The notes under the pieces were generated by a model. That model was not told where the DNA came from and made no database searches. It saw nothing but the letters and a program-made list of their open reading frames with translations. From positions 18,378 through 82,377 of the forward strand of contig JAAWAE010000036.1 of the NCBI GenBank assembly GCA_022792035.1: a DNA stretch of 64,000 bases, written 5' to 3'. The DNA comes from Ruminiclostridium sp. GTDB lineage: Bacteria; Bacillota; Clostridia; Oscillospirales; Oscillospiraceae. The position numbers and the translations under genes are program-made. Below, piece by piece: positions 5,770 to 45,433 of this stretch (its first letter is position 1; every line of letters starts with the position of its first letter).

Positions 5770-7074
5770 TTAGTTTAGGAAATCTTTTAACTTCTTGGAA
5801 CGGCTGGGGTGACGGAGCTTGCGCAGAGCCTTCGCCTCGATCTGGCGGATACGCTCCCTAGTGACGTTGAACTCCTTGCCCACCTCTTCCAGGGTGCGGG
5901 TACGTCCGTCCTCGATGCCAAAGCGCAGCTTCAGCACCTTTTCTTCCCGGGGGGTCAGGGTGCTCAGCACCTCCACCAGCTGCTCCTTGAGCAGGGTGAA
6001 GGAGGCGGCTTCCGAAGGTTCGGAGGCATCCTCGTCGGGGATGAAATCTCCCAGGTGGGAGTCTTCCTCCTCGCCGATGGGGGTCTCCAGGCTCACCGGT
6101 TCCTGGGCGATTTTCAGGATTTCCCGCACCTTATCCACAGGCATCCCGATCTCCTCGGCAGTCTCCTCGGGGGTGGGGTCGTGGCCCAGCTCCTGGAGGA
6201 GCTGGCGGTTGACGCGGATGACCTTGTTGATGGTCTCCACCATGTGCACCGGGATGCGGATGGTCCGGGCCTGGTCGGCAATGGCCCGGGTGATGGCCTG
6301 CCGAATCCACCAGGTGGCATAGGTGGAGAACTTGTATCCCTTGGTGTAGTCGAACTTCTCCACCGCCTTGATCAGGCCCAGGTTCCCCTCCTGGATCAGG
6401 TCCAGGAAGAGCATCCCACGGCCCACATACCGCTTGGCGATGGACACCACCAGACGCAGGTTCGCTTCCGCCAAGCTCTGCTTGGCCCGCTCCCCAGCCT
6501 TCACCAGGGCTCGCAGGGCCTTCGCGTCCTCTTCAGGCAGCACCGTACCCTCGCGCTCCATCTCCGCCAGCTGTTCCTTGGCCTCCTGTCCGGCCACCAT
6601 GGCCTGGGCCAGGGCCACTTCCTGGTCGCTGGTGAGAAGGTCCACCTTGCCGATCTCCTTTAAGTACATCCGTACCGGGTCGTCGATGCCAAAGGCGTCC
6701 ACCAGGGTGTTGGGGTCTACGATCTCCTCATCGGGGATCTCCTCGATCTCCTCGATGGGCGGCATGGCGTCGGGGTTCAGATCGGGGAGATAGTCCTCCC
6801 CTGCTGTGTCGATGCCCATGTTCTCCATGACATCGTAGAGCTTGTCCATCTGTTCGGAGTCCAGGTCCATTTCCTCCAAGGCCTCCATGAGTTCATTGGA
6901 GGATAGGCTTCCCTTCTTTCTTCCCCTGTCCAGCAGATCCCCCAGCTTTTCCGCTCCAGTGACGCCGGACACGATTTTTAAGATATCCGCCTTGCCGGCC
7001 TGGAACTGTTCCTCAGTCAGATGGAGCATCTTTTCTTTTTCCCGCTTGTTGTCCAGACTTTTCTTTTCGCTCAT
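5770..7074 (-). CDS. rpoD: RNA polymerase primary sigma factor (sigma-A, RpoD)
   Basis: The true start is the ATG at 7074, which overlaps the dnaG stop (ATGA). That gives 434 residues; the 518-residue ORF of the track includes out-of-frame dnaG sequence. Region 1.2 ([16 protein letters not shown]), region 2 ([27 protein letters not shown], then [17 protein letters not shown]), region 3 and region 4 ([18 protein letters not shown], then [17 protein letters not shown]) are all present. It directs RNA polymerase to the TTGACA/TATAAT promoters seen across this window. It is the last gene of a dgt-dnaG-rpoD operon. Confidence 0.97.
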
Positions 7075-8828
7075 GGCGTTCCATCTCCTATACTTTTCTT
7101 TTTTTGCAAACGTTCCCGCGCCGCCAAAAGCGCCGCCTCGTCCGTCTCGTTTCGTTTCTGATACTCCTGCCGGACTACGCTGCAGTAGTCCCCCATAGCC
7201 TGACGTCCCTTCTCCAGTGCCTCCGGCTGGCGGAGGATCTCCGCCAGGAGGCGGACTTCCTCCGGTTCCAGCTCCCCTTCCAGCATCCCCAGCTGGGTGG
7301 GACGGCCCTCCTGAAGGCGGCGGCACAGAACCTCGTATATTTTACCCAGGTGGGGGGCGGAAAACCACGCCGCCTCCAAGCCGCCGCAGGCAGAGCGAAG
7401 GGTGCCGTCCAAAAGGAGCAGACGCAGGATGCCCTCCTCCGCCCGGGCAGAGCGGAGATTTTCATAGCGCAGCTGCCGCTCCCGGGGCTGTGCCTGGACC
7501 GTGGGGGTCAGGTCCCGGCGGGTCTGCTTCTTCTTGGCCTGACGCAGACGCTGCTTCCGGCAGCGGTCGATCTCCTGAAGCAGGGCGCCCTTGCCGATGC
7601 CTGTGCCCTCGGATACCTTTCCCGCATAGACCTCCCGCTCCACGGGGCTGTCCAGCTCGGAGAGCAGCTCCGCCGCCGCCTGGGCAAAGGCCGTCTTCTC
7701 CATCGGGTCCTCCAGGCGATACTTGCTCTGCAGCTGGTCCAGGCGATAATCCACATAGTTCTCCGACTGATCCAGGAGCCTTGCGAAGGCCTCCGGGCCG
7801 TTTTTTCGGATAAATTCGTCGGGGTCCTTGGCCCCACTGACCCGGAGGACCCGGACCTTGAGTCCTGTGCGTTCCAAGAGCGGGATGGCCCGGTTGGCCG
7901 CTTGGGTCCCGGCCCCGTCAGTATCGTAGCTGATGACCACCTCTTTGGTAAAGCGGGAGAGGAGCTTGGCGTGGTCCGCCGTAAGGGCGGTGCCCAGACT
8001 GGCCACTGCACAGTCGAAACCCGCCTGGTGGAGGGCGATGGTGTCCATATATCCCTCCGTTAAAACAAGACGCCCCAGCTTGGTGGTCTTGGCTAGGTTC
8101 AGGGCAAAGAGATTGCGGCTTTTATTAAAGACGGGACTGTCCGGGGAGTTCAGGTACTTGGGGGTCCCATCCCCCAAAACCCGGCCGCCGAAGCCGATCA
8201 CATCCCCCCGCAGGTCGATGATAGGGAAGATCACCCGGCCCCGGAATCGGTCGTAAAGACCGCCCTTCTTGTTGTCCACCGCCAGACCCGCGTCCAGCAG
8301 CTCCCGTTTTTCAAACCCCTTTTGGGTCATGGCCCGAAGCAGGGAATCCCAGCTGTCCGGGGCATACCCCAGGCCGAAGCGGGTGATGGTCCGCTTGGAC
8401 AGGCCCCGGCCGCGGAGATAATCCAGCCCCTCCTGCCCCGCTGGGGCGTGGAGCTGGGCGTGGAAGTACCGGGCAGCCTCCTTGTTCAGGGCCAGGAGGC
8501 GTCCTCGCTTTCGGCGGCTGGCCTCGTCCATGCTTTGTTCGGGGAACTCCATCCCCGCCCGTTTGGCCAGCAGACGGGCCGCGTCCAAAAACGGCAGGTT
8601 TTCCAACTCCATGACAAAGGAGAGCACGCCGCCGCCCTTGCCGCAGCCAAAGCAGTGGTAGAGCTGACGGTCCGGCAGGACGTGGAAGGAGGCGGTTTTC
8701 TCCCCGTGGAAGGGACACAGGCCCCAATAGCTCCCCCCTTTGGGGGTAAGATTGACGTAGTCACCCACCACGTCCACGATGTCGCTGCGGGCCACCAGCT
8801 CGTCCAGGAATGCCGATGGAATCGCCAA
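7071..8828 (-). CDS. dnaG: DNA primase DnaG
   Basis: The 585-residue protein begins at a TTG codon behind GGAGGAG. It shows the N-terminal zinc ribbon ([13 protein letters not shown]...[10 protein letters not shown], residues about 38-65) and a Toprim catalytic core with [12 protein letters not shown] and [12 protein letters not shown]-terminal helicase-binding region follows. It makes RNA primers for the lagging strand at the replication fork. It lies between dgt and rpoD; the dnaG-rpoD pairing is the classical macromolecular-synthesis operon. Confidence 0.96.
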
Positions 8829-8866
8829 GTTCTCCTCCCCCCCTTTGCCGTCCTACGGCGCGAAGC

Positions 8867-9871
8867 TCACTTCACCGCCCAGGCGAAGGGGATGAAAGCC
8901 TCGCTGTATTTTTCCAATGCGTAGTTGTCGGTCATCCCGGCGATGTAGTCACACACCGCCCGGTCCACCCCCTCCCGGAAACGGATGTCCTGAAAGTCCG
9001 GGGGGAGCTTGTCCGGCTCCTTCTGATAGTATTCAAAAAGCCGGGCGAGCATGTCCTGGGCCTTGGATTCCTCACCCTTGGCCACCGGATTGTGATACAC
9101 CGCCTCGAACATGAACGCTCGCAGCTTTGCCATGGCCTCCCGGCAGGCCGGGGACTGCTGAACGCGGTCCTGACCCTGACTGGCCTGGATCACGTCGGCG
9201 GTGAGGGTGTTGATGCGTCCGCTGTGGTCGAAGCCCAGAATCTGGGAGACGTCCAGGGGGATATCCATGGGATAGATGATGTTGCCCCGCATGGCGTCGT
9301 CGATGTCGTGATTGATGTAGGCTATCTTGTCCGCAATGCGCACGATCTGCCCCTCCAGGGTCTCGGCGGTGTCCGGCCCTGTGTGGCAGAGGATGCCCCG
9401 GCGGACCTCATAGCACAGGTTCAAACCCTCGCCGCCGCTCTCCAGGCGGTCCACCACCCGGAGAGACTGCTCGTTGTGGCGGAAGCCCTCTGGAAGGATC
9501 TCATTGAGCAGACGTTCCCCCGCGTGCCCGAAGGGGGTGTGCCCCAGGTCATGGCCCAGAGCCACTGCCTCGGCAAGATCCTCGTTGAGCCGCAGCCCTC
9601 GGGCGATGGTCCGGGAGATCCGGGCTACCTCCAGGGTATGGGTCATACGGGTGCGGTAATGGTCCCCCTCCGGGCGGAGAAAGACCTGGGTCTTGTGCAT
9701 CAGGCGGCGGAAGGCTTTGGAATGGACGATGCGGTCCACGTCCCGCTGGTAGCAGGTGCGGATGGCGCAGGGCTCCATCGGGCGCCGCCGGCCCTTGGAG
9801 GCAGAGGCATAGGCTGCATAGGGAGAGAGGGTCTGGTGTTCCAGCGCCTCCCGTTCTTCCCGCAGGGTCAT
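8867..9871 (-). CDS. dgt: dNTP triphosphohydrolase (dGTPase-like, HD domain)
   Basis: I start at 9871 (MTLREERE) behind GGAGGGAGGAG, giving 334 residues; the upstream extension in the track is out of frame with any neighbour. The HD metal site is visible: RTRMTHTLEVARIS, GHDLGHTPFGHAGE and ADKIAYINHDIDD. The family hydrolyses dNTPs to deoxynucleoside and triphosphate and so tunes precursor pools. Its place ahead of dnaG-rpoD fits a replication role. A TATAAT (9926-9921) upstream may be its -10 box, but no convincing -35 accompanies it. Confidence 0.9.
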   Translation of the reverse strand: MTLREEREALEHQTLSPYAAYASASKGRRRPMEPCAIRTCYQRDVDRIVHSKAFRRLMHKTQVFLRPEGDHYRTRMTHTLEVARISRTIARGLRLNEDLAEAVALGHDLGHTPFGHAGERLLNEILPEGFRHNEQSLRVVDRLESGGEGLNLCYEVRRGILCHTGPDTAETLEGQIVRIADKIAYINHDIDDAMRGNIIYPMDIPLDVSQILGFDHSGRINTLTADVIQASQGQDRVQQSPACREAMAKLRAFMFEAVYHNPVAKGEESKAQDMLARLFEYYQKEPDKLPPDFQDIRFREGVDRAVCDYIAGMTDNYALEKYSEAFIPFAWAVK

Positions 9872-33096: not shown

Positions 33097-36000
33097 TCAG
33101 CTCAGGATCTCGTCCAGCGTGTCCAGGAGCTTTTCTATGTCAATGGGCTTTGCAATGTGTCCGTTCATCCCGCACTGCAGCGCCGCCCGTTTGTCCTCTT
33201 CAAACGCGTTGGCTGTCATGGCCAGGATGGGCAGCGACGCCACCGCCTTGTTCTCCATGGCGCGGATGGCACGGGTGGCCTCATAGCCATCCATCACCGG
33301 CATCTGTACATCCATGAGGACCAGATCGTAGTCACCGGGCTTGGCGTTTTTCAGCTTGTTCACCGCCACTTGTCCATTCTCCGCAATCTCCGTGGTGAAG
33401 CCTGCCTCGGTGAGGATGGCTACGGCGATTTCCTGGTTGAGCTCGTTGTCCTCAGTGAGGAGGATGTGCCCGTTGTGCAGACGGTCCGGACCCCTGCGGG
33501 GGCGCTCCGCGTCCGAATCCCCTTCCACCACCGAGTGCAGGCAGGCCCGCAGCTCCGAGCAGAAGAGGGGTTTGCTGCAGAAGGCCGTAACCCCGGCTTC
33601 CCGGGCCTCCTCCTCGATATCCGCCCAATCGTAGGCGGTGAGGACGATGATGGGCACGTCTTCCTCGGTCTCCTTGCGGATGCGTCGGGCCACCTCGACC
33701 CCGTTCATGTCCGGCATCAGCCAGTCGATGAGGTAGACGCTGTAGTTGTCGTTGCGCATGATCGCCTGACGGGTCCGCAGCACCGCTTCCCGTCCGGACA
33801 TGGTCCACTCAGCCCGCAGCCCCATCTGCTGGAGCATATAGGATACGCTGTCACAGGTGTTGAAGTCATCGTCCACCACCAAGGCCCGACAATTCTTCAG
33901 CTTAGGGATCACCTGGGACTCTTTGGCACGCGCCCCCAGACGGAAAGTGAAGGTGACGATGAATTCCGTCCCCACCCCCTGCTCACTGCGCACTTCGATG
34001 GTCCCGTTCATCATGTCTACGATATTCTTTGTGATGGCCATGCCAAGGCCAGTGCCCTGGATGCCGCTGATGGTAGAGTTGCGCTCACGCTCGAAGGGTT
34101 CGAAAATGTGTTCCACGAACTCTTGGCTCATACCGATGCCGGTATCCTTGATGTAAAATTCATAGTTGGCAAAGCCGTCAGGCGCACCAGTCTTCTCCGT
34201 GATGCGGATGCTGACGATCCCTCCGGGGCCGGTGTACTTGATACAGTTGCTCAGAAGGTTCAGCAGGACCTGATTCAGGCGCAGCTTGTCGCAGAAAATC
34301 TCCTCGTCCAAAACGTCCACAGTATCGATGAACAAGTCCAGCTGCTTGGCCCGGATGTCCCCCTGGATGATGCTGCGCAGACCGTGGAGGATGTCCGGCA
34401 GGCTGCACTGGTTCTCCTCCAGGTGCATCTTCCCGCTCTCAATGCGGCTCATGTCCAGGACATCGTTGATGAGGCTCACCAGATGGTTGCCGGAGGTCAG
34501 GATCTTCTTCAGGTATTCCTCCACCTGCTCCTTCTGGTCGATATGGGTGATAGCCAGGGTGGTGAAGCCTACAATCGCATTCATGGGGGTGCGGATGTCG
34601 AGGGACATATTGGACAGGAAGACGCTCTTGGCCTTGCTGGCCCGGTTGGCTTGGAAGAGGGCATCCTCTAAAAGGCTCTTTTTCTGCATCTCTTTCCGGG
34701 TCTCATCGTCCACATTGAGAAAACCTAGTACGACGCCGCACTCCTGCTCCCAGTCCCCCGTCCGGACGACCTTCATCTGGAAATAACGGATTTCATTGCC
34801 GCAGAAGGTGCGATAGTTGAAATAGTATTGTTTCTTGTCTGCCAGCTCCCGGCACAGGGTCTCCCGGCTGCAAAGCTGACGCATGGTTTCCTGATCATCT
34901 TTGTAGACACAAGTGTCGATGTATGCCTGCATACACGTCTCGAGCTGCAGGGGCTTTCCGAACAAATCCTCCAGCACACCGAACTCGCAGGAACTGATCC
35001 GCAGGGAGGCACCCTTCCCAGTGCTCAGATCGAAGACGCAGACCAAGTTGTAATCCTCGCTGAGAGCGTGGATCAGCTCCATCTGCTGGCGTTCCTTCTG
35101 CATCTCCCGCAGCTTTTGATCGGTGCAGTCCAGGAGCAGACGCTGGAAGAAGAGCTCTCCGTTCTCCTCCACCACCTTGATGTTGCCCATAACGTGGGTA
35201 ATCGCGCCGCTGTCCTTTTGATGGACGCGGTACTCCACACTGACAGAATCCCCCACCTCATTGAGCTTGTGGATGGCCTCCAACAGCATATCCTTGTCCT
35301 CGTCCACAACAGAAGCCGCCACCATATCAAACCCGTCGGCGTTCATCTCCTCCCGGGAACTGTAGCCCAGAAGCTTCAATGCCGCCCGGTTGACACTGAG
35401 GATGTGGGAACCGTCCATACTGTGGCAGACCATGCCGCAGTCCATAGAGGTGAAGATCATCTCCATGGTCTGATTCTGGCGGACGATCTCCTGCTTATAG
35501 GCCCGCTCCTGGGTTATGTCAATGGCTACGCCTACGGTGCCCATAACGCTGCCATCCACATTATAAAGGGGGGATTTATAGGTGGTCAGCAACCGTGTCC
35601 CCTCACCGGTCTGGACGATCTCTTCCGAGATCTTGGTCTGACGGCTCTCCATCACGATACGTTCGGATTCAATGCACACCGGGTCGTCATACTCCACATC
35701 CCAGATGTAGGCATGACCCTGACCCTCGACTTGCTCCTTCGTCTTCTTCACCGTGCTGCAAAAGCTGTCGTTTACCTTTTCATGAATCCCGTTCTTATTT
35801 TTGTACCAGACGAGATTGGGCACACTGTTGATGGTGGCTTCCAAATATTGGCTGGTCTGCCAAAAGTCCTTCTCCTGCTTCCACGCCTGCTGGAGGCGCT
35901 GGAAACGAAAGCGCAGCTCCGCCTGGGACAGCGGGGTATGCCACAAGTCCTGGAGTTTTGGCAGATAGGGATCCAGCCCCTGCCCTTGGGGCGCCAACAG

Positions 36001-36231
36001 AATCAGCTGGGCCTGGGCCCGCTTTCCTTTCAGCAGGGCTTCCAGCCGGCTGGCCCCTAAAGCGCGCCAGTCGGCCAAGATCACATCGGCCCGGGCCATG
36101 GGGCCAGGTTCCGGGACGCTGCTCTCTGTAAAGCTATGGTCAAAGCCTGCAAGGGGCGCAATCCCCCTGAGCTGAACGGTCAGTTCCGTTGGACATCCTA
36201 TAAAATAAAAGTGGATTTGGCAGTGATACAT
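33097..36231 (-). CDS. Multi-PAS hybrid histidine kinase lacking the catalytic histidine
   Basis: I start at 36231 (MYHCQIHFYF) behind GGAGGAAG, giving 1044 residues. Order: a receiver-like N-terminal domain (1-110), PAS domains (about 125-245 and 255-375, perhaps a third to 510), HisKA, HATPase_c (N box LNLLSNCIKYT, G1 DTGIGM, G2 GTGLGM) and two receivers (LIDWLMPDMNG and LVLMDVQMPVMDG). The H box reads FLSNMSLDIRTPMNAIVGF, where related proteins have SHDIRTP. Leu 544 (CTC) replaces the phospho-acceptor His. The ATP site and receiver Asp residues look intact. It cannot autophosphorylate in the usual way; it may be a pseudokinase or decayed. Confidence 0.88.
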   Translation of the reverse strand: MYHCQIHFYFIGCPTELTVQLRGIAPLAGFDHSFTESSVPEPGPMARADVILADWRALGASRLEALLKGKRAQAQLILLAPQGQGLDPYLPKLQDLWHTPLSQAELRFRFQRLQQAWKQEKDFWQTSQYLEATINSVPNLVWYKNKNGIHEKVNDSFCSTVKKTKEQVEGQGHAYIWDVEYDDPVCIESERIVMESRQTKISEEIVQTGEGTRLLTTYKSPLYNVDGSVMGTVGVAIDITQERAYKQEIVRQNQTMEMIFTSMDCGMVCHSMDGSHILSVNRAALKLLGYSSREEMNADGFDMVAASVVDEDKDMLLEAIHKLNEVGDSVSVEYRVHQKDSGAITHVMGNIKVVEENGELFFQRLLLDCTDQKLREMQKERQQMELIHALSEDYNLVCVFDLSTGKGASLRISSCEFGVLEDLFGKPLQLETCMQAYIDTCVYKDDQETMRQLCSRETLCRELADKKQYYFNYRTFCGNEIRYFQMKVVRTGDWEQECGVVLGFLNVDDETRKEMQKKSLLEDALFQANRASKAKSVFLSNMSLDIRTPMNAIVGFTTLAITHIDQKEQVEEYLKKILTSGNHLVSLINDVLDMSRIESGKMHLEENQCSLPDILHGLRSIIQGDIRAKQLDLFIDTVDVLDEEIFCDKLRLNQVLLNLLSNCIKYTGPGGIVSIRITEKTGAPDGFANYEFYIKDTGIGMSQEFVEHIFEPFERERNSTISGIQGTGLGMAITKNIVDMMNGTIEVRSEQGVGTEFIVTFTFRLGARAKESQVIPKLKNCRALVVDDDFNTCDSVSYMLQQMGLRAEWTMSGREAVLRTRQAIMRNDNYSVYLIDWLMPDMNGVEVARRIRKETEEDVPIIVLTAYDWADIEEEAREAGVTAFCSKPLFCSELRACLHSVVEGDSDAERPRRGPDRLHNGHILLTEDNELNQEIAVAILTEAGFTTEIAENGQVAVNKLKNAKPGDYDLVLMDVQMPVMDGYEATRAIRAMENKAVASLPILAMTANAFEEDKRAALQCGMNGHIAKPIDIEKLLDTLDEILS

Positions 36232-36330
36232 AGATTCTTCCTCCCGCTGCGAAAGCCCCAGGCCCGTCTCCCTGGCACAGCCTTGGCTCACCGGTCTTGG
36301 TCTGAGGGACCAGCAATCGGTCTCTTTCCT
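36232..36330 (-). other. Structured leader of the kinase operon
   Basis: About 100 bases separate the promoter from the kinase start. On the minus strand they can form several hairpins: GGTC-cctca-GACC, AGCC-aa-GGCT and CCAGG-gagacggg-CCTGG. I cannot match them to a known riboswitch class. It may be an unrecognised leader RNA or simply GC-rich spacer. Confidence 0.35.
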
Positions 36331-36362: not shown

Positions 36363-36394
36363 CATGAGACGGCGCAGCAGCGGCAGAAACCCTA

Positions 36395-36433
36395 AAAAAT
36401 CCCCGCGTGGACGGTGCTCACGCGAGGAGTTTT
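36395..36433 (-). terminator. Rho-independent terminator after pilT
   Basis: On the minus strand TCCTCGCGTG-agcaccgtc-CACGCGGGGA is followed by TTTTTT. It closes the pilus-like operon. Confidence 0.85.
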
Positions 36434-36447
36434 CAGCTTCTTTCTTC

Positions 36448-37506
36448 TTATCCCAAGCGCCGCTGGAGCTGCTCCGGGTGGTCGGAGCTGGACAGCGCCG
36501 TCTCCTTGGAGATCCGCCCTGCCTTATACAGCGAGAAAATGGACTGATCCATGGAAATCATCCCCTCCGCGCCGCCGGCGGCAATGGCGTTGTCAATCTG
36601 GTGGCTCTTGCTGTCCCGGATCAGACTGCGGATGCCGTTGTTGACGTGCATCACCTCAAAGGCCGGGGCCAGCTTCCCGTCCACGGTCTGCAGCAGCTGC
36701 TGGGACACCATGGTGTGCAGAACCATGCTCAGCTGGATGCGGACCTGGGCCTGCTGGTCACTGGGGAAGGCGTCCACGATGCGGTCCACTGTGTTTACCG
36801 CCCCCTGGGTGTGGAGGGTGGCGATGAGGAGATGGCCCGTCTCCGCTGCGGTCATGGCAGTGCGGATGGTCTCCGGGTCCCGCATCTCCCCCAAGAGCAC
36901 CACGTCCGGGGCCTGGCGCAGACAGGCGCGAAGGGCGGAGTTGTAGTCCTCAGTGTCAATGGAGATCTCCCGCTGGCTGACGATGCTCTTATAATTGCGG
37001 TGGAGATATTCGATGGGGTTCTCCATGGTGATGATGTGGCACTCCCGGTCCCGGTTGATCTGGTCGATGATGCAGGCCTGGGTGGTGGACTTGCCGCTGC
37101 CGGCAGTGCCCGTGACCAAAATCATGCCGTGGCGGACCTGGGAGAGCTTGATGACTTCTTCCGGAATCCCCATCTCCTGCCAGTCCGGGATGCCGAAGGC
37201 CACCACCCGGATCACCGCCGCCATGGAACCTCTCTGCCGGTATGTGTTGGCCCGGAAGCGGGCCAAGCCCGGCAGGGCAAAGGAGAAGTCATCGTCTCCC
37301 CGACCCATGAACAGGTCCATAGAGCGGCCTGCTCGAGCGTAGAGATCCGTAATCAGCCGTTCCGTATCCGAAGGCATCATCCGCTCCTCGCCGATGGGGC
37401 AGAGCCGTTGATCCAGCTTCTGGCACACCGGACTGCCGGCGATGATGAACAAATCGGAGGCGTTGTCCTCCACAGAGCGGGTCAAATAGTCCAGCAATTC
37501 TGCCAT
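36448..37506 (-). CDS. pilT: Type IV pilus retraction-type ATPase PilT
   Basis: The 352-residue cytoplasmic ATPase has the PilT layout: an N-terminal domain (NASDLFIIAGSPV), Walker A GTAGSGKSTT (the usual first residues are GPTG), an Asp box, Walker B VVLLGEMRDPETI, a His box (IATLHTQGAVNTVDRIV) and an AIRNLIRE-like motif near the end (GIRSLIRDSKSHQI). PilT powers pilus retraction in classical systems. No PilB extension ATPase is in this window, so this may be the locus's only motor. It is the last gene of the operon, 10 bases after a small membrane protein gene. Confidence 0.92.
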   Translation of the reverse strand: MAELLDYLTRSVEDNASDLFIIAGSPVCQKLDQRLCPIGEERMMPSDTERLITDLYARAGRSMDLFMGRGDDDFSFALPGLARFRANTYRQRGSMAAVIRVVAFGIPDWQEMGIPEEVIKLSQVRHGMILVTGTAGSGKSTTQACIIDQINRDRECHIITMENPIEYLHRNYKSIVSQREISIDTEDYNSALRACLRQAPDVVLLGEMRDPETIRTAMTAAETGHLLIATLHTQGAVNTVDRIVDAFPSDQQAQVRIQLSMVLHTMVSQQLLQTVDGKLAPAFEVMHVNNGIRSLIRDSKSHQIDNAIAAGGAEGMISMDQSIFSLYKAGRISKETALSSSDHPEQLQRRLG

Positions 37507-37516
37507 GTCGTTCCTC

Positions 37517-37951
37517 CTATTCCCCGTCCCAAACCGTCAGGCTGTCGTCGATGGACCAGTCGCCGGTGGGGACGGCCTGCCAGCGCCGGACCATATACTC
37601 CTCGCCCCGAAACTCCACCGTGACCCTGAGTGTCTGGGTCTCGGAGATGGGACAGTCGTAGGAATAACTCACATCCCCGGCGTCGTTGATCTTCTTACTT
37701 TTTATTTTGATGTCCTTGGACACCGTCTCACCGCTGCGCAGCTGAGCCAGGACCTCCTGGGCCTTGCTGTCAGCGTTGTAATATTCTTCTACAGATCGGG
37801 CCGAAATTTGGCTGAGCCGTCCGTCGGCCCGGACGGTGGAGAGGCTCAGCAGCGCGAACACCGTCAGGCACAGCACGGCGAACACCACCAGCAGAGAGGC
37901 CCCGCCGATGGCCGGAGGCGAGATGCGCCCGTCCTCTTTCTTAGCTGCCAT
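37517..37951 (-). CDS. Small membrane-anchored pilus-locus protein
   Basis: This 144-residue protein has one N-terminal helix (ASLLVVFAVLCLTVFALLSL) followed by an extracytoplasmic domain with a YNADSKAQEVLAQLRSG segment. It has a single-helix pseudopilin-like layout but no clear prepilin peptidase site (no GFTLIE-type motif). It overlaps the previous gene by 11 bases and precedes pilT by 10, so it belongs to the pilus-like operon. I infer a minor pilin or assembly role from position only. Confidence 0.7.
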   Translation of the reverse strand: MAAKKEDGRISPPAIGGASLLVVFAVLCLTVFALLSLSTVRADGRLSQISARSVEEYYNADSKAQEVLAQLRSGETVSKDIKIKSKKINDAGDVSYSYDCPISETQTLRVTVEFRGEEYMVRRWQAVPTGDWSIDDSLTVWDGE

Positions 37952-38372
37952 GGATGCTCACCTCCTGCCATGCCGCCTCCAGGCGGAACAGTTCCGTTTC
38001 CTCCTGTTCGTCCCGCAGCCACACGGCGGCCCGGCCCAGACCGGGCTGGTCCTCCTCCAGGCGGGTGACGCCCAGGGTATAGCGCATGGTATCCTCTGCC
38101 GGAGTCCAATCCTTGGCATAGTCCACCATCAGGGAATCCGAGTCATATGTATCAGCGCCCAGCAGTTTGGCAGCTTGGGCGAAGTCACCCTTGGAAGCCC
38201 GGATGGCCTCCGCTGCGTTCTGGCACAGGGACACGGCTTGGTCCCGGTCCACAATCTGCTGGGAGAGCTGGTCGGACTTCACAAAAGCCTGCATACACAG
38301 CGCCGCCGCCAAGGCGAACACCAGCAGCATGACCATCTGCTCCATGAGCACCAAAGGCGCTTTGCTCCTCAT
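37941..38372 (-). CDS. Pseudopilin-like membrane protein
   Basis: The 143-residue protein begins MRSKAPLVLMEQMVMLLVFALAAALCMQAF. That is a short basic start, a Glu just before a long hydrophobic helix and then a soluble domain with two Cys. It is reminiscent of pilins but without the standard cleavage motif. The start overlaps the stop of the DUF4860 gene (ATGA). I infer a minor pilin-like component of the same system. Confidence 0.7.
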   Translation of the reverse strand: MRSKAPLVLMEQMVMLLVFALAAALCMQAFVKSDQLSQQIVDRDQAVSLCQNAAEAIRASKGDFAQAAKLLGADTYDSDSLMVDYAKDWTPAEDTMRYTLGVTRLEEDQPGLGRAAVWLRDEQEETELFRLEAAWQEVSIHGS

Positions 38373-38860
38373 GCCGCCGCCCCCCTCTCACTGCGCAGGG
38401 ACAGCAGCAGCTCCGCTTCCCTGCCCTCCTGGGTGGTCAGGGACAGCTTCAATACCCCTCGGGACAGCTCCGCCGACAGAGACTGGGCCGGCATGATCTC
38501 CTCTCCGTCCGCCGGGGAGACCTCATTGCTGGCGGCACAGAAGAGCTCCTTCAGATGACCCTCGTCCACATAGACATAGGTCACATAGTCCGCTCCGTCA
38601 ATCTCTTCCCGCAGGAGCAGGGCGTCCCTGCCGTCAAAGTCCTCCACGCTGACCCCGTTGATCCGGTCAGCCTGACGCACTCTGGCCGCCAGATATTGGG
38701 CGCAGACCCGGTAATCATAAGCCGCCTGATCCCGGTCCGTCAAGGCCCGGTACGTATTGGCCCCCGTCAGCAGCACTGCCATCAGACAGACGGCGAACAC
38801 GCCAAAAAGCAGCAGGGCCAGCAGACCCTCTAATTGATGTTTTTGCCCACTTCTTGTCAT
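38369..38860 (-). CDS. DUF4860-like pilus-locus protein
   Basis: The 163-residue protein (MTRSGQKHQLEGLLALLLFGVFAVCLMAVLL) has one N-terminal helix preceded by an EGLL segment and a soluble domain with YRVCAQYLAARVRQAD and YVDEGHLKELFCAA. It resembles DUF4860, a clostridial family found next to pilC-like genes; the function is unknown. It is preceded by a GC-rich hairpin in the 95-base gap after the 107-residue protein gene, which might attenuate transcription. Confidence 0.7.
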   Translation of the reverse strand: MTRSGQKHQLEGLLALLLFGVFAVCLMAVLLTGANTYRALTDRDQAAYDYRVCAQYLAARVRQADRINGVSVEDFDGRDALLLREEIDGADYVTYVYVDEGHLKELFCAASNEVSPADGEEIMPAQSLSAELSRGVLKLSLTTQEGREAELLLSLRSERGAAA

Positions 38861-38955
38861 TTTTCATAGCCTCAAGCTCTTAAAAATGTCACAGCTTCAA
38901 GAAAAGGCAGGGGACAGCGCGACCTCGCGCGGCCCCCCTCCTTATCCGTTACGGG

Positions 38956-39279
38956 TCAGGACCCGGTCCCCTGCACCGGCACCACCGTGATATCCGGCAT
39001 CAGGTTTTGGGCAATGGCCACGTAATGCACCGTGCAATGCGTCTCGTCGATCTGCAGGCCGAAGCGCTCCTGAAGGGCCTCCAGGCTGGGGGGATAGACC
39101 CCCTCCGCCGCGTAGCAGGCTACGCTGCTGCGGCGCACCGCTTCTTCTACCTGCTTGAGCTGCTCCTGGGCCTGTCCGCTGCCCAGCTCGTCCAGGGCGG
39201 TGGAAAAAAACAATAAAACCACCGCCACCGCCAGCACCGGCAGGGCCATTCGCAGCAGGTTCTTCCATCTTTTTTTCAT
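38956..39279 (-). CDS. Small single-helix protein of the pilus-like operon
   Basis: The 107-residue protein has a basic start (MKKRWKNLLRM), one helix (ALPVLAVAVVLLFFSTAL) and a short soluble part with EEAVRRSSVACYAAEGVYPPSLEALQERFGL. That is the kind of segment seen after the N-terminal helix of type II secretion and pilus pseudopilins. It begins 4 bases after pilC. The absence of a prepilin cleavage motif leaves the exact role open. Confidence 0.72.
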   Translation of the reverse strand: MKKRWKNLLRMALPVLAVAVVLLFFSTALDELGSGQAQEQLKQVEEAVRRSSVACYAAEGVYPPSLEALQERFGLQIDETHCTVHYVAIAQNLMPDITVVPVQGTGS

Positions 39280-39283
39280 GGTC

Positions 39284-40318
39284 TCACCCGATGGTACTCA
39301 TGATGTGCATCAGCGGCAGCATCACAGACAGCAGGATCAGGCCCACCAGCACCGAGCAGATCAGCACCAGTGCCGGCTCCACCCGGCTCACCATCTCCTC
39401 CACAGCGGCTTCGCTGTCTTCGGAGAGGTCCCGGGCAATCTTCTCCATGGCCATATCGGCCGAACCGCTGCGCTGACCCAGCTCCAACAGCCGGCAGGCG
39501 CTGCTGGGGAGCAGGTCGCTGCTGCGCACCGCCTCGGACAGGGAACTCCCCTCCTCCAGCTTATCGCAGCAGGACTGGCAGCGGGCCTGGGCCAGAGGCA
39601 CATCCGCCAGCAAGGTGGCTGAGAGCTCCAGCGCCTTCTCCAGCGGCAGGCCGCTGGTCATGCCCATGGACAGCGCCTGAATCAGGCGCGCGTTATTCAT
39701 ACGCCGGGAAACGCCCCGGTCTCCCCGGCTCCTGCGCCAGGAAGAGAGAATCTTGCCGCGAAAGCGGTCGCTCTGGGCAAAGGCGGCGCATAGCACCACC
39801 ACCACTGCCAGCAACACCCACAGCAAGGGCATCACAGATCCCAACCCGCGGCCCAAGGCCAGCAGGCCCCCGGCTACGCCGGTAAGCCTGCTGCCCAGGG
39901 AGATATATACATCATTGAATATGGGCAGGACCCGGATCAGGAGCACCCCGATGACCACCAGCATCAGCACCAGCATCACCGCCGGATACAGCAGCGCGCT
40001 GCGCACCTGACGCTCCAGGCGCATCCTGCGCTCGTAGTACTGGGACAGCCCGGCCAGGGCCTCCTCGGTGCGGCCGGTCTCCTCCCCCACCTGGATCAGT
40101 CCGCAAACGTAGGCAGGGAAGCGTCCGCTCTGCCGCAGGCACTCCGAGAGCGGTGCGCCCAGGTCAGCCTGTTCTGCCATGCCCTCCAGCAGGTCCTGGT
40201 AGGCGCCCTCCTGGCCCAGAAGGGCCAGGGCGTCGCCTACGCTGACACCAGCGTGGAGGAGCAGATACAGTTCCATGGTCAAACCGGAGAGTTCCCGGTT
40301 CGTGATCGTCTTTGCCAT
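39284..40318 (-). CDS. pilC: Type IV pilus/type II secretion inner-membrane platform protein (PilC/GspF)
   Basis: The 344-residue protein has two GspF domains. The first contains DLGAPLSECLRQSGRFPAYVCGLIQVGEETGRTEEAL and the second contains SLSEAVRSSDLLPSSACRLLELGQRSGSADMAM. Three membrane helices follow the family pattern, ending VGLILLSVMLPLMHIM. PilC is the inner-membrane base that couples the motor ATPase to pilin assembly. It lies 11 bases after a transglutaminase-like lipoprotein gene and ahead of the pilin-like genes. Confidence 0.9.
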   Translation of the reverse strand: MAKTITNRELSGLTMELYLLLHAGVSVGDALALLGQEGAYQDLLEGMAEQADLGAPLSECLRQSGRFPAYVCGLIQVGEETGRTEEALAGLSQYYERRMRLERQVRSALLYPAVMLVLMLVVIGVLLIRVLPIFNDVYISLGSRLTGVAGGLLALGRGLGSVMPLLWVLLAVVVVLCAAFAQSDRFRGKILSSWRRSRGDRGVSRRMNNARLIQALSMGMTSGLPLEKALELSATLLADVPLAQARCQSCCDKLEEGSSLSEAVRSSDLLPSSACRLLELGQRSGSADMAMEKIARDLSEDSEAAVEEMVSRVEPALVLICSVLVGLILLSVMLPLMHIMSTIG

Positions 40319-40329
40319 CGTGCAGGATC

Positions 40330-41334
40330 TTAGTAGAGGTACTTGGTGGTGTAGTTGCTGCCGTCACCCACGTACTGCTGAATCGCCGCACTGTTTTTGC
40401 TGGAAGAGATGAAGGTGGGGTCCATCCGCTGCCAGGAGGTGCCGTCAAAGAAGATGGCGCCGTCCACCCAGCCGCTCTCCTCGGTATAGACGCTGACCCA
40501 GGCATGGTATGCCTGACCGGCGTAGCCCACCACCAGCTTGCAGGGGATATCCTGGCTGCGCAGCATCCCGGTCATCAGGGCGGCATAGTCGAAGCAGATG
40601 CCCTTGCCCTCAGCCAGGGTGGTATCCAGGACAGGCAGATAGCCGGACTTCACCGTAGCGGCCTTCTGGCTGTCATAGGTGATGTGGGAGACCACAAAGT
40701 CATAGACCTTCTGCACCTTTTTCAAGGTGTCCGTCTCCCCGCTGGTGAGCTCCGCGGCCTTGGCCACGGTGTTCTTGGCCACACCATAGTCTACATACTG
40801 GTTGGGATAGAGGAAGGGGCCGAACTCGTTGGCCAGAGTCACGTCAAAGGACTCGGACAGAACGGTGGCATAGCGGTCGCTCTCGATGTTCTCGAAAACC
40901 GTCACCTGATACTTCCCGTTGCCGTCGGACAGGGGGAAGGTGGTCCAGGTGTCCGCCTTCAGGTCATAGGTGTAAGTGGTCTTTGCCGTCACCTGGACCT
41001 TCAGCCGCTTTCCGGAGGCAGAGGAGCTGGTGATCATGATATAACCATCCTTGGCGTTGGAATAATCGATGGTAGCCTGATCGCTCTTCTTAGCCTGGGT
41101 CCCGGGGGCCGTGGGCTTGAGGTTGCCAGATTGTACGGGCTGAGGTGCGTCAGCCAGTGCTACCGCCTCGTCGCTGATTTTAGCCACTTCCACCACAGGC
41201 GAGACGTCGATATACATCGACTCAGAGTCGTTCTCCTGGGCCGGCTGGGACGCGCTTTCGTCCTGTGTGCCGCAGCCTGCCAGCAGCATCAGCAACATAG
41301 AGGCCAGGAGAACCAATGAAAGTTTTTTCTTCAT
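40330..41334 (-). CDS. Transglutaminase-like lipoprotein
   Basis: I start at MKKKLSLVLL (41334), where GGAGG is 8 bases upstream; 334 residues. The signal peptide ends LLMLLAGC (lipid Cys about 21). A Ser/Gly linker and a beta-domain precede a transglutaminase-like core with Cys 247 (GKGICFDYAALM), His 277 (AYHAWVSVY) and Asp 305 (RMDPTF), a complete catalytic triad. Such surface proteins act as cysteine proteases or cross-linkers. It opens the pilus-like operon, so processing or cross-linking of surface fibres is a reasonable but untested idea. Confidence 0.88.
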   Translation of the reverse strand: MKKKLSLVLLASMLLMLLAGCGTQDESASQPAQENDSESMYIDVSPVVEVAKISDEAVALADAPQPVQSGNLKPTAPGTQAKKSDQATIDYSNAKDGYIMITSSSASGKRLKVQVTAKTTYTYDLKADTWTTFPLSDGNGKYQVTVFENIESDRYATVLSESFDVTLANEFGPFLYPNQYVDYGVAKNTVAKAAELTSGETDTLKKVQKVYDFVVSHITYDSQKAATVKSGYLPVLDTTLAEGKGICFDYAALMTGMLRSQDIPCKLVVGYAGQAYHAWVSVYTEESGWVDGAIFFDGTSWQRMDPTFISSSKNSAAIQQYVGDGSNYTTKYLY

Positions 41335-41437: not shown

Positions 41438-41505
41438 GCACATTTTTCTTTCTTTTCTGCCTATCTATATCCTATGAATTCCCTCCCTTTTGTGCTACTT
41501 TTCGC

Positions 41506-41554
41506 AAAGGAAGGCCCGACCCAGAGAAGTCTTCCCCGGGACGGGCCTTCCTTT
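41506..41554 (-). terminator. Rho-independent terminator after nifU
   Basis: AAAGGAAGGCCCG and CGGGCCTTCCTTT form a 13-bp stem with an inner CCC/GGG extension, immediately after the nifU stop on the minus strand. Confidence 0.8.
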
Positions 41555-41950
41555 TTATGATTTTTCAGCTGCTGCCACCGCCTGCCGCCGGCGGTAGTCC
41601 TCCAGCGCCGCCTGGATGGCCTCCTCCGCCAGCACCGAACAGTGGAGCTTGTGGGCCGGCAGGCCGTCCAGGGCCTGGGTCACGGCCTTGTTGCTCAGCT
41701 GCGCGGCCTCCTCCAAGGGCCTGCCCTTGATCAGCTCAGTGGCCATGGAGCTGGAGGCAATGGCACTGCCGCAGCCGAAGGTCTCGAAGCGGACGTCTGT
41801 GACGATGCCGTCGTCGATCTTCAAATAGATCTTCATGATATCGCCGCAGACCGCGTTGCCCACCTCACCGACCCCGTCGGCGTCCTCGATCACCCCCACG
41901 TTCCGGGGATTTCTGAAATGATCCATCACTTTTTCGCTGTATAGCGCCAT
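41555..41950 (-). CDS. Fe-S cluster scaffold protein (NifU/IscU type)
   Basis: The 131-residue protein is a single-domain IscU/NifU-N scaffold with the three cluster cysteines in context: GNAVCGDIMKIYL, ETFGCGSAIASSSM and HKLHCSVLAEEAIQ. Residue EDADGVG near the start is also typical. It receives sulfur from the cysteine desulfurase encoded just upstream and assembles [2Fe-2S] or [4Fe-4S] clusters in the cytoplasm. It ends the metY-cysK-nifS-nifU operon. Confidence 0.94.
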   Translation of the reverse strand: MALYSEKVMDHFRNPRNVGVIEDADGVGEVGNAVCGDIMKIYLKIDDGIVTDVRFETFGCGSAIASSSMATELIKGRPLEEAAQLSNKAVTQALDGLPAHKLHCSVLAEEAIQAALEDYRRRQAVAAAEKS

Positions 41951-41981
41951 CGTACCCTTCCTCCTTATGATCTATTGTTTA

Positions 41982-43166
41982 TTATAGGATAAATGCCTGC
42001 TTCCCGCTGCACTTGTCCCTCCATAGGGGAGACATGGCCCGCAGGCAGGCCACTGTCTCCGGGACTGCCTTTAGAATCGCCTCTACATCCGCCTCGCTGT
42101 TCTCCTCGCTCAGGGACAGCCGCAGAGAGCCGTGGGCTACCTCATGAGGACGGCCCAAAGCCAGCAGGACATGGCTGGGGTCCAGAGAACCAGAGGTACA
42201 GGCCGAGCCGGAGGAGGCACAGATTCCTTTGTCATCCAGCAGCAGAAGCAAGCTCTCCCCTTCCACACCCTCGAAGCAGAAGCTGACATTGCCGGGGAGG
42301 CGGTCCACCGGGTCGCCGTTGAGCGCGGAATGCGGGATCGCTCCCAGCCCCGCGATCAGCTTGTCCCGCAGGGCGGAGACCTTGGCGGCATTCTCCGCCC
42401 TGTGGGCACAGGCTTCCTCTAGGGCCGCCGCCATGCCCACGATCCCCGGAACGTTCTCCGTCCCCGCCCGCTTACCCCGCTCCTGGGCGCCGCCCTGGAT
42501 GAGGCTGGTCAGAGGGAGGCCCTGTCGGGTATAGAGCACCCCCACGCCCTTGGGTCCGTGGAACTTATGCGCCGACAGCGAGAGCATATCTATCTTCTGC
42601 GCCCGGACGTCCACTGGCAGGTGTCCCACCGCCTGGACCGCGTCGGTGTGGAAGAGCACCTTCCTCTCCCGGCACAGTGCCCCGATCTCCGGAATGGGCA
42701 GAACGGAGCCTACCTCGTTGTTGGCGTACATGATGGTCACCAGGGCCGTATCCTCTCGGATGGCCTGGGCCACCTGCTGGACCGTAACGGTCCCCTTCTC
42801 CCCCACCGGGAGCAGCTCTATTTCATAGCCCTCCTTCCCCAGCTGCTCCAGGGTGTGCAGGACGGCGTGGTGCTCGAAGGCCGTGGAGAGGATATGCCGT
42901 TTCCCGCGCTCCGCCCCGATCCGGGCGGCAGAGCGGATCGCTTGGTTGTCCGCCTCACTGCCCCCGGAAGTAAACGTGATCTCTCGGGGCTGCGCGCCGA
43001 TGCAGGCGGCAATTCTGGCCCGGGCATCCTCTAAAACCTCCGCCGCCCGCTGGCCCAGGTCGTAGAGGCTGGAGGGATTGCCCCAAGTCTCTTTCATGCA
43101 GGTGAGCATAGCATCGAGCACTGTGGGACTCATCCGGGTGGTGGCCGCGTTGTCTGCGTAAATCAT
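41982..43166 (-). CDS. Cysteine desulfurase (NifS/IscS type)
   Basis: I start at 43166 (MIYADNAATTRMSP) with GGAAGGGA upstream; 394 residues. The PLP-binding Lys lies in SLSAHKFHGPKGVGVLY near residue 200 and the catalytic Cys in the short loop SSGSACTSGSLDPSHVL near 325. The enzyme removes sulfur from cysteine as a persulfide for Fe-S assembly on the adjacent scaffold. Its place directly after cysK suggests cysteine made there is partly channelled to clusters. Confidence 0.95.
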   Translation of the reverse strand: MIYADNAATTRMSPTVLDAMLTCMKETWGNPSSLYDLGQRAAEVLEDARARIAACIGAQPREITFTSGGSEADNQAIRSAARIGAERGKRHILSTAFEHHAVLHTLEQLGKEGYEIELLPVGEKGTVTVQQVAQAIREDTALVTIMYANNEVGSVLPIPEIGALCRERKVLFHTDAVQAVGHLPVDVRAQKIDMLSLSAHKFHGPKGVGVLYTRQGLPLTSLIQGGAQERGKRAGTENVPGIVGMAAALEEACAHRAENAAKVSALRDKLIAGLGAIPHSALNGDPVDRLPGNVSFCFEGVEGESLLLLLDDKGICASSGSACTSGSLDPSHVLLALGRPHEVAHGSLRLSLSEENSEADVEAILKAVPETVACLRAMSPLWRDKCSGKQAFIL

Positions 43167-43200
43167 GAGACTTTCCCTTCCTTTCTCTGTTTCGTTCGTG

Positions 43201-44136
43201 TTACACTTCCGCGAAGAGCGGGGTAGATAGGTACCGCTCGCCGGTGTCCGGCAGCAGGACCACGATGGTCTTATCTGCATTCTCCGGCCGCTTGGCCAGG
43301 GTCAAGGCCGCGTGGAGGGCCGCGCCGGAGGAAATACCCACCAGAACCCCCTCTGTACGACTCATCAGGCGTCCGGCGGCAAAGGCGTCCTCGTTGGATA
43401 CCGGGAGGATCTCATCATAAACCGACGTATCCAGTATCTCCGGGACGAAGCCCGCGCCGATGCCTTGAATCTTGTGGGCGCCTGCGCGGCCCTCGCTGAG
43501 GACCGGAGAGTCCTTGGGTTCCACCGCTACCACTTTTACCGCTGGGTTTCGCTCCTTCAAATACTGGCCCACGCCGGTGATGGTCCCGCCTGTGCCGACA
43601 CCCGCCACGAAAATATCTATCTTGCCCTCGGTATCCTCCCAGATTTCCGGGCCGGTGGTGATCTTATGCGCGGCGGGGTTGGCGGGGTTGACGAACTGCC
43701 CGAGGGTCACACTGCCTGGGATCTCCACCGCCAACTCCTCTGCCTTGGTAACGGCCCCCTTCATGCCCTTGGCCCCTTCTGTGAGGATCAGCTCCGCACC
43801 GTAAGCGCCCATCAGCTGACGGCGCTCCACGCTCATAGTCTCCGGCATGGTGATGATAAGACGGTATCCCTTTGCCGCCGCTACCGACGCTAAGCCGATG
43901 CCGGTGTTCCCGGAAGTGGGTTCGATGAGGACCGCGCCGGGTTTCAGTCTGCCGCTGGCCTCGGCTTCGTCGATCATGGCTTTGGCAATCCGGTCCTTTA
44001 CCGACCCGGCGGGGTTGAAATACTCCAGCTTCGCCAGAACACGGGCCTGTAAGCCCTGGGCTTCCTCCATGCGTTTGAGCTCCAGGAGGGGTGTTTTGCC
44101 GATCAGCTGCTCGATAGATGTATAGATCTTAGCCAC
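43201..44136 (-). CDS. cysK: Cysteine synthase A (O-acetylserine sulfhydrylase)
   Basis: The 311-residue PLP enzyme has the CysK signatures: [16 protein letters not shown] (Lys 47 region), [13 protein letters not shown] near 88, a Gly-rich phosphate loop [12 protein letters not shown] near 180 and a C-terminal [10 protein letters not shown]. It forms cysteine from O-acetylserine and sulfide. It starts at GTG and overlaps the metY end by 8 bases. No serine acetyltransferase gene is in this window. Confidence 0.96.
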
Positions 44137-45433
44137 GGTCTGCTCCTTTCTCTGCGGCGGCGGAAAAACCCCGCTCTAAGTCGGCCAGGATGTCATCGAT
44201 GTGCTCAGTCCCGATGGACAGACGGATGGTGTTGGGGCGGATGCCCTGGTCCAGCAGCTCCTCCTCCGTGAGCTGGGCGTGGGTGGTAGTCGCCGGGTGG
44301 ATCACCAGAGATTTGACGTCCGCTACGTTGGCCAGCAGAGAGAAAAGCTCCAGGTGGTCGATAAATCGATGGGCCTCGGCTTGTCCGCCCTTGATCTCAA
44401 AGGTGAAGATAGAAGCTCCGCCGTGGGGGAAATAACGCTGGTACAAGGCGTAGTCGGGATGCTCTGGAAGGCTGGGGTGGTTCACCGCCTCCACCTGGGG
44501 ATGGGTCCGGAGGAAATCCACCACCTTCTTCGTGTTCTCCCCATGCCGTTCTAGCCGCAGGGAGAGGGTCTCCACCCCCTGAAGCAGCAGGAAGGCATTG
44601 AAGGGCGAAAGGGTCGCTCCAGTGTCCCGGAGGAGGATCGCCCGGATGTAGGTGGCAAAAGCGGCAGGTCCGGCGGCTTCCGTGAAGCTGACGCCGTGGT
44701 AGCTGGGGTTGGGTTCCGCAATGGGGGCATACTTCCCGCTGGCCTTCCAGTCGAACGTCCCCCCGTCTACGATGATCCCGCCCAGGGTGGTGCCGTGCCC
44801 GCCGATGAACTTCGTGGCAGAGTGGACCACGATGTCCGCCCCGTGCTCGATGGGCCGGAGCAGGTACGGTGTGGCGAAGGTGTTGTCGATCACCAGGGGC
44901 AGGCCGTGGGCATGGGCGATGGCCGCAATGGCGTCGATGTCCGGGATGTCGCTGTTGGGATTGCCCAGGGTCTCCAGGTAGATGGCCTTGGTGTTGGGCT
45001 GGATGGCCCCCTCCACCTCTGAGAGGTCATGGGCATCCACAAAGGTGGTCTGGATACCGTACTGAGGGAGGGTATGGGCCAGGAGGTTATAGCTCCCGCC
45101 ATAGATGGTCTTTTGGGCTATGATGTGCTCCCCCGCCTGGGCCAGGGCTTGGATCGTATAGGTGATTGCCGCCGCGCCGGAGGCCAGAGCTAAGGCTGCT
45201 GTGCCGCCCTCCAAGGCCGCGATGCGGCGTTCCAGGACGTCCTGGGTGGAGTTGGTCAGACGTCCGTAAATATTGCCCGGGTCTGCCAGGCCAAAGCGGG
45301 CAGCAGCATGGGCGCAGTCCCGGAAAACGTAAGACGTGGTCTGGTAGATCGGCACTGCCCGAGCATCGGTGGCCGGGTCGGGCTGCTCCTGGCCCGCGTG
45401 GAGCTGGATGGTCTCAAATCTATGCTTTTCCAT
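44129..45433 (-). CDS. metY: O-acetylhomoserine sulfhydrylase (MetY type)
   Basis: The 434-residue protein belongs to the Cys/Met metabolism PLP family. Motifs: [62 protein letters not shown] and the PLP Lys in [15 protein letters not shown]. The length and the [12 protein letters not shown] segment favour O-acetylhomoserine (thiol)-lyase over MetB/MetC. It makes homocysteine from O-acetylhomoserine and sulfide. It is the first gene of the sulfur operon, behind a near-perfect promoter. Confidence 0.94.

Follow-up and report, generated by a model that had tools for sequence, protein, structure and literature searches.

Can a machine of the type IV filament superfamily run with PilT as its only motor and with subunits that no prepilin peptidase cuts? 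The question is raised by a seven-gene operon on the minus strand (36448-41334) of a 64,000-nucleotide stretch of Ruminiclostridium sp. DNA (contig JAAWAE010000036.1), here called the window. It encodes a transglutaminase-like (TG) lipoprotein, a PilC-type platform protein, four small proteins (p107, a DUF4860 protein, p143, and p144), and a PilT-class ATPase, and this tightly packed gene set was borne out as read in an original prediction made from the DNA alone. The module, as the set is called here, appears to be a previously undescribed, reduced variant derived from the type IV filament superfamily, and it is conserved in many gut bacteria. We see somewhat less than an even chance that its products form a peptidase-independent, PilT-driven anchored pseudopilus or actuator that works with the surface TG enzyme. 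The seven genes are:

40330..41334, minus strand: TG lipoprotein, 334 residues, secreted, lipobox LLAGC, PF01841
39284..40318, minus strand: PilC/GspF/ComGB-type platform, 344 residues, core only, PF00482
38956..39279, minus strand: p107, GspG/major-pilin-like small protein by size and its CYAxEGxYPP region, without E5 and without a cleavage site
38369..38860, minus strand: DUF4860 protein, putative GspJ-like minor pseudopilin, PF16152 (E 5.5e-26), degenerate prepilin N-terminus QKHQLE
37941..38372, minus strand: p143, pilin-like minor subunit, Glu+5 kept (KAP^LVLMEQ), without Gly-1
37517..37951, minus strand: p144, pilin-like minor subunit with a GspK/PilX/ComGG-like N-terminus (Gly, then hydrophobic, no E5)
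36448..37506, minus strand: PilT-class ATPase, TIGR01420, the sole T2SSE-family ATPase found in the assembly

From the TG gene to pilT, the intergenic gaps are 11, 4, 95, -4, -11, and 10 bp. Searches of Pfam and NCBIfam gave no family match above the cut-off for p107, p143, and p144.

Absence of PilB and prepilin peptidase

The lack of PilB in the operon had been noted, with a genome search for pilB and pilD proposed as a check. PF00437 was used for T2SSE-family ATPases and PF01478 for A24 prepilin peptidases. In the window assembly (G000; 1.9 Mb, 104 contigs, 84.7% complete), one T2SSE-family ATPase exceeds the PF00437 cut-off, the operon's PilT, and neither an extension-type ATPase (PilB/GspE/ComGA/TadA) nor an A24 peptidase was found. 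An assembly of this completeness cannot prove absence, and relatives were therefore searched. The near-closed genomes G192 (one contig, 100% complete) and G372 (five contigs, 99% complete) likewise contain no extension-type ATPase. Exactly one T2SSE ATPase (E <= 1e-12), the module PilT, is present in G192, G372, G278, G380, G651, G754, and G661. In all, eight genomes, including the two near-closed ones, hold the module PilT as their single T2SSE ATPase, and seven of these are without an A24 peptidase; none was found in G192, G372, G278, G380, G651, and G754, and the exception is G661. The module is independent of PilB or PilD in general, since near-closed carriers have neither. No PilMNO genes lie in the operon; a genome-wide PilMNO search was not made.

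Some carriers encode a full PilB/PilD set elsewhere in the genome (e.g. G006, G023, G422, [Clostridium] asparagiforme), and a Tad-type system is present in some (e.g. G277, Pseudobutyrivibrio ruminis). Strain AD2017 of P. ruminis (L149), a cultured rumen commensal, has no PilB; its ATPases of this kind are a Tad-type one and the module PilT. The objection foreseen in the original prediction, a complete set elsewhere that uses these parts in the ordinary way, applies to such relatives and neither to the window's assembly nor in general. PilB and/or an A24 peptidase being encoded in many carriers would fit a set of ordinary accessory genes that relies on PilB and PilD, or on Tad parts, from elsewhere in the genome, as would the sharing of prepilin peptidases between systems that Denise et al. 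describe (PMC6668835). As a general rule, borrowing is refuted by the carriers with one T2SSE ATPase and no A24 peptidase (G192, G372, G278, G651, and G754), and the cleavage sites are gone even where PilD is present (G006 and G297); as an explanation of the module it is very unlikely.

A divergent PilC-p107-DUF4860-p143-p144 set lies in L133 (G048:C2:64000-80000) at 6504-9266 on the minus strand, where the pilin-like parts come without a motor. G048 is 100% complete (20 contigs), and the searches gave neither a T2SSE ATPase nor an A24 peptidase anywhere in it.

Identity of the motor and the platform

By family model, structure-derived sequence profile, and motif, the module ATPase is a PilT. 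The window protein reaches 392 bits against TIGR01420 (cut-off 319) and 100-118 bits against the ComGA, GspE, and PilB models (ComGA 112 bits, cut-off 300). Compared with the sequences of solved structures, the module PilT profile scores 433 bits with PilT (2GSZ) and 116 bits with PilB. The P-loop, Asp/Glu, and His motifs of PilT are conserved, and the AIRNLIRE-like motif reads GIRSLIRD in the window and AIRNMIRE in the majority of 24 homologs. In a tree calculated by a quick method without bootstrap, 70 module PilTs form one clade (Shimodaira-Hasegawa-like approximate likelihood-ratio test, SH-aLRT, 98) next to canonical PilTs of Lachnospiraceae clusters, and the PilTs of PilT-first and PilB-DUF4860 clusters sit in another clade (100). 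Among GTDB genomes, nearly all of the best PilT matches belong to modules, and canonical PilTs come after them. Two carriers, G083 and G260, hold the module without its own PilT and encode an unlinked canonical-type PilT; G260 is also without PilB.

The window PilC has two T2SSF domains (PF00482, E 8.1e-42) and is without the ~55-residue N-domain of canonical PilC, the GspF model being matched from position 58. Module PilCs have a median length of 349 residues versus 404 in canonical PilC. The N-domain of PulF, which has the same length as the missing stretch, has been reported as nonessential (PMC10790770).

Small subunits with lost cleavage sites

To judge from their sequences, all four small proteins derive from genuine prepilins, whose cleavage site is mostly gone in the TG-linked versions. 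Homologs of p143 with G^FTLIE or G^FTLVE occur outside the TG-linked group (G099, G125, G149, G120, and G165); G^FSVIE or G^YSLIE is found in DUF4860 homologs (G080 and G300) and G^FTLIE in p107 homologs (G201 and G080). The Pfam N_methyl model (PF07963) exceeds its cut-off in several homologs of p107 (G201 and G080), DUF4860, and p143. In the window, each of the four proteins has a single hydrophobic helix at its N-terminus and lacks a G^xxxxE prepilin site. The reported lack of a standard motif therefore stands, with the refinement that the pilin Glu at +5 persists in p143 and an acidic residue at the equivalent position of the DUF4860 protein.

Glu+5 is present in nearly all TG-adjacent p143 proteins and invariant in 25 aligned homologs. 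At residue -1 of TG-adjacent p143 (n = 56), S, P, T, R, and others account for 41 cases, A for 3, and G for 12. The strict canonical prepilin motif is found in p143 at 0 of 56 TG-adjacent loci versus 12 of 24 others, counts that are not independent of phylogeny. Gly16 of p144 is invariant in 24 homologs, as in GspK/PilX-like proteins, and the ComGG model matches p144 weakly (E 0.041); sequence and gene order together point to a GspK-like role.

In AlphaFold2 (AF2) models, the DUF4860 protein (predicted local distance difference test, pLDDT, 90.1) takes on a 60-residue helix with an eight-stranded head, and p107 (pLDDT 91.5) is a small pilin-like lollipop with a long α1 and two strands. The top Foldseek match of the DUF4860 model is GspJ (3ci0_J), followed by EpsJ and XcpW (prob 0.94-1.0), and the best matches of p107 are type IV pilins; both models thus resemble the pilin lollipop fold, with weak Foldseek E-values. 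The DUF4860 profile gave no meaningful match among PDB sequences. The best matches of its model suggest that the DUF4860 protein is a GspJ-like minor pilin, through which this family would gain a role. Across p107 homologs, a near-invariant Cys lies in CYAxEGxYPP (residues 55-63) and is a candidate for a disulfide, a TG target, or a structural residue.

The transglutaminase-like lipoprotein

The lipoprotein matches Transglut_core (PF01841, E 1.7e-23) and has a beta-type N-terminal region. Its Cys-His-Asp triad (C247/H277/D305) is invariant in 32 homologs, and the nearest solved sequences include the putative cysteine protease 3ISR and the protein-glutamine glutamyltransferase 6G49. A predicted cross-linking or processing of the machine's product is compatible with this sequence. 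Co-conservation of the TG gene with the module, which had been proposed as a check, holds in 60 relatives: TG matches above 350 bits occur in 12 of the 13 module genomes and in 0 of the 47 others (best 239 bits). The remaining module genome, G040, is 55% complete, with a contig that breaks off at this point. The TG family is almost confined to genomes with the module, and one module branch (G099, G125, G149, G251, and G380) is without it.

A function of the TG protein as a replacement prepilin peptidase is ruled out because it is an exported lipoprotein and prepilin leaders face the cytoplasm. Second module-type TG copies lie away from the operon in L214 (G000:C27:12074-13042, 418 bits) and L215 (G011:C1:145920-146756, 415 bits).

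Distribution and conservation

With iterated profiles, 80 module loci were collected. The full order TG-PilC-p107-DUF4860-p143-p144-PilT on one strand is found in 53 of them, chiefly in Oscillospiraceae and Lachnospiraceae, and the order from PilC to PilT is kept in 70, which takes the arrangement beyond chance. Named carriers are Oscillospiraceae, Lachnospiraceae, Blautia, Mogibacterium, Anoxynatronum, and one metagenome-assembled genome of Erysipelotrichaceae. DUF4860, used as a marker, exceeds its cut-off in 13 of 60 related genomes, in 41 of 392 sampled genomes of the class (about 11%), and in 11 of 399 in the phylum sample; 14 control genomes gave no match. In the related genomes it stands together with PilC wherever the contig is long enough, and with PilT in nearly all cases.

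The reduced gene set and the lost cleavage sites are also what a decaying remnant of a former pilus cluster would leave. This explanation is contradicted by purifying selection on all genes, with ratios of nonsynonymous to synonymous substitution (dN/dS) of 0.02-0.30 in close pairs where computable, from which it follows that the module is not decaying. The gene order is moreover conserved across distant families and the catalytic residues are intact, and a remnant is considered highly improbable.

Transcription unit and genomic surroundings

Two hairpins border the operon:

36385..36445, minus strand: intrinsic-terminator-like hairpin with UUUUUU just 3' of pilT (-26.8 kcal/mol, z -4.96)
41490..41560, minus strand: strong hairpin between the IscU-like gene and the TG gene (-42.3 kcal/mol, z -7.09)

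Their positions after pilT and before the TG gene suggest separate transcription, consistent with the operon being its own unit, set apart from the upstream sulfur genes; the hairpin at 36385-36445 is not among the elements listed by a consensus terminator scan. These sulfur-metabolism genes (41555-45433, minus strand) encode an IscU-like protein, a cysteine desulfurase, a cysteine synthase, and an O-acetylhomoserine sulfhydrylase-like protein. Directly downstream of pilT lies a hybrid histidine kinase with receiver domains (33097-36291, minus strand). In L139 a similar protein adjoins the module, and other modules have GGDEF or response-regulator proteins at their flanks.

The neighbors of the 80 loci were examined for a conserved cargo or substrate gene, and none is general. 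The neighbors vary and include BTAD regulators (near 16 of 80 modules), GGDEF and response-regulator signaling proteins (a mixed cluster near 15 of 80), ECF sigma factors, and sortases. BTAD/SARP-type regulators flank, for example, L024, L027, L028, L094, L095, L103, L111, and L140, and a BTAD/SARP-like protein also stands beside a solitary TG gene in L217. Sortase genes occur near 11 of 80 modules, about 7 directly downstream; same-strand sortase genes come straight after pilT in L097, L098, L030, L109, L135, and L148.

The sortases, together with large S-layer homology (SLH) or beta-helix surface proteins that adjoin some loci, would suit an endopilus similar to that of type II secretion, in which a piston of the subunits exports or presents surface proteins that the TG enzyme, and sometimes a sortase, finishes on the wall. 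The resemblance of the subunits to the pseudopilin set and to the type II secretion order F-G-(J)-I-K points the same way. However, sortases and surface proteins are found in a minority of loci, no conserved substrate gene, secretin, or GspLM accompanies the module, and the type II secretion motor is GspE, not PilT. Secretion of this kind is thus quite unlikely.

Proposed mechanism

The reading preferred here, an anchored PilT-driven pseudopilus, would be a reduced type IV filament machine with a core of PilC, four pilin-fold subunits, and a hexameric PilT-class ATPase, served by a dedicated surface TG enzyme. The subunits would take GspG-, GspJ-, GspI-, and GspK-like roles, of which the individual GspG, GspI, and GspK assignments are provisional. 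They would stay uncut by prepilin peptidase, with their basic leaders remaining at the cytoplasmic membrane, and because the leaders stay there, what they form on PilC would most likely be a short pseudopilus or tip-like complex anchored in the membrane, rather than a long pilus. Docked below PilC, PilT would turn or pull the complex in a direction that we infer, and the work of ATP would be passed across the membrane to the wall-facing heads. There, the complex itself, the wall, or a surface protein might be the substrate of the TG lipoprotein. A reduced machine with PilT as sole motor, as originally proposed, is supported by the lost cleavage sites and by the near-closed relatives, which encode one T2SSE ATPase and lack an A24 peptidase.

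It is possible, at clearly below an even chance, that the system is a fiber-less, ATP-driven trans-envelope actuator, whose anchored pilin-fold subunits, moved by PilT via PilC, operate the TG enzyme or its target. If true, the type IV filament lineage would here have given rise to a machine that has abandoned the filament and works without PilB or prepilin peptidase.

The original prediction came near to a different idea, a true surface fiber, for which PilT would have taken over extension, uncleaved p107 would polymerize, and the TG enzyme would cross-link the fiber covalently. In its favor, p107 looks like a small major pilin, the catalytic triad of the TG enzyme does not vary, and platform, pilin set, and motor occur together. 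A single ATPase does both jobs in Tad systems. We still regard the fiber as unlikely. Prepilin peptidase and extension ATPase accompany every type IV filament studied (PMC10191384; PMC10790768), and PilT, which the module ATPases are by every score, is modeled to rotate towards depolymerization and to move the platform inwards (PMC6858323). A long uncleaved fiber is made unlikely by the minimal Com pilus, in which ComC processing and all com genes are required for pili (PMC10790768). If leader removal and an extension ATPase are obligatory and PilT works inwards, the module cannot build a long pilus; if these rules fail, PilT must have acquired extension and uncleaved pilins must polymerize.

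Several points weigh against an anchored machine of uncleaved subunits. PilB, PilD, or Tad systems are also held by several carriers. Because 12 of 56 TG-adjacent p143 proteins still have Gly-1 and p144 retains a Gly, a peptidase, where there is one, could cleave them. Since the motif changes state about two times along the PilT tree, the comparison with TG linkage has no power, and no causal link between TG and motif loss can be claimed. The Foldseek E-values for the DUF4860 model are weak, about 0.04-0.1 (0.036 at best), and the presumed inability of uncleaved subunits to polymerize is extrapolated from other systems.

Significance

Pilin, prepilin peptidase, extension ATPase, and platform are found in every type IV filament system according to a recent review (PMC10191384). 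In near-closed genomes, the module is without two of these four supposedly universal proteins, yet it is conserved and under selection. The accessible text of Denise et al. describes repeated loss of PilT and no case of PilB lost with PilT kept (PMC6668835); as far as this text goes, known reductions in the superfamily drop PilT and keep the extension motor, and the module is the reverse. The accessible sections of the survey of Gram-positive pil, tad, and com operons by Imam et al. do not mention this module type (PMC3244431). No description of the seven-gene module and no mention of DUF4860 were found in the open-access literature. The module is a natural setting in which to ask whether PilT by itself can drive a machine, whether pilins can work uncleaved, and which job a surface transglutaminase has in gut commensals. 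Either outcome would be informative, be it an anchored actuator or extension by PilT with uncleaved polymerizing pilins.

Comparison with known systems

The Com pilus (ComGA-GG and ComC), a type IVd pilus (T4dP), is similarly a minimal monoderm system with one ATPase, one short platform, four to five pilins, no PilMNO, and one operon. It differs in its extension ATPase ComGA, its peptidase ComC, and the cleavage of all its pilins, whereas the module has PilT as ATPase, no ComC, lost cleavage sites, and an added TG enzyme. With the type IVa pilus (PilB/T/C/D/MNO), the module shares PilT and PilC homologs and pilin-fold subunits, and type IVa-like clusters of Lachnospiraceae hold the PilTs nearest to those of the module; in contrast, the module has no PilB, PilD, or PilMNO and no cleavable major pilin. 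The type II pseudopilus (GspF-G-H-I-J-K) likewise places a GspF platform before a series of G/J/I/K-like subunits, and the DUF4860 protein models like GspJ, but PilT stands in for GspE, and GspL/M, secretin, and GspO are absent.

The PilB-PilT-PilC-DUF4860 clusters (L126 in G110, L127 in G080, and L128 in G201) share the same DUF4860-type minor pilin family. They still have PilB and prepilins that can be cleaved, among them a DUF4860 protein of canonical prepilin type, and their PilTs belong to another clade, which makes them useful as an ancestral-type comparison. The MSH pilus locus is also without a prepilin peptidase of its own (PMC6668835). It differs in that its genome always has a peptidase elsewhere and in that it has an extension ATPase.

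Among the features of type IV filaments, the extension ATPase and the A24 peptidase are missing, and none of the four window proteins has a class III signal peptide of the form G/A^xxxxE with a hydrophobic helix; a GspF/PilC platform, a PilT/VirB11-like ATPase predicted to be hexameric, and, in the models of the DUF4860 protein and p107, the pilin fold are present. Under a strict definition by peptidase, extension ATPase, and cleaved pilins, the module falls outside the superfamily, but the platform, the PilT-family motor, and the pilin-fold subunits are the same.

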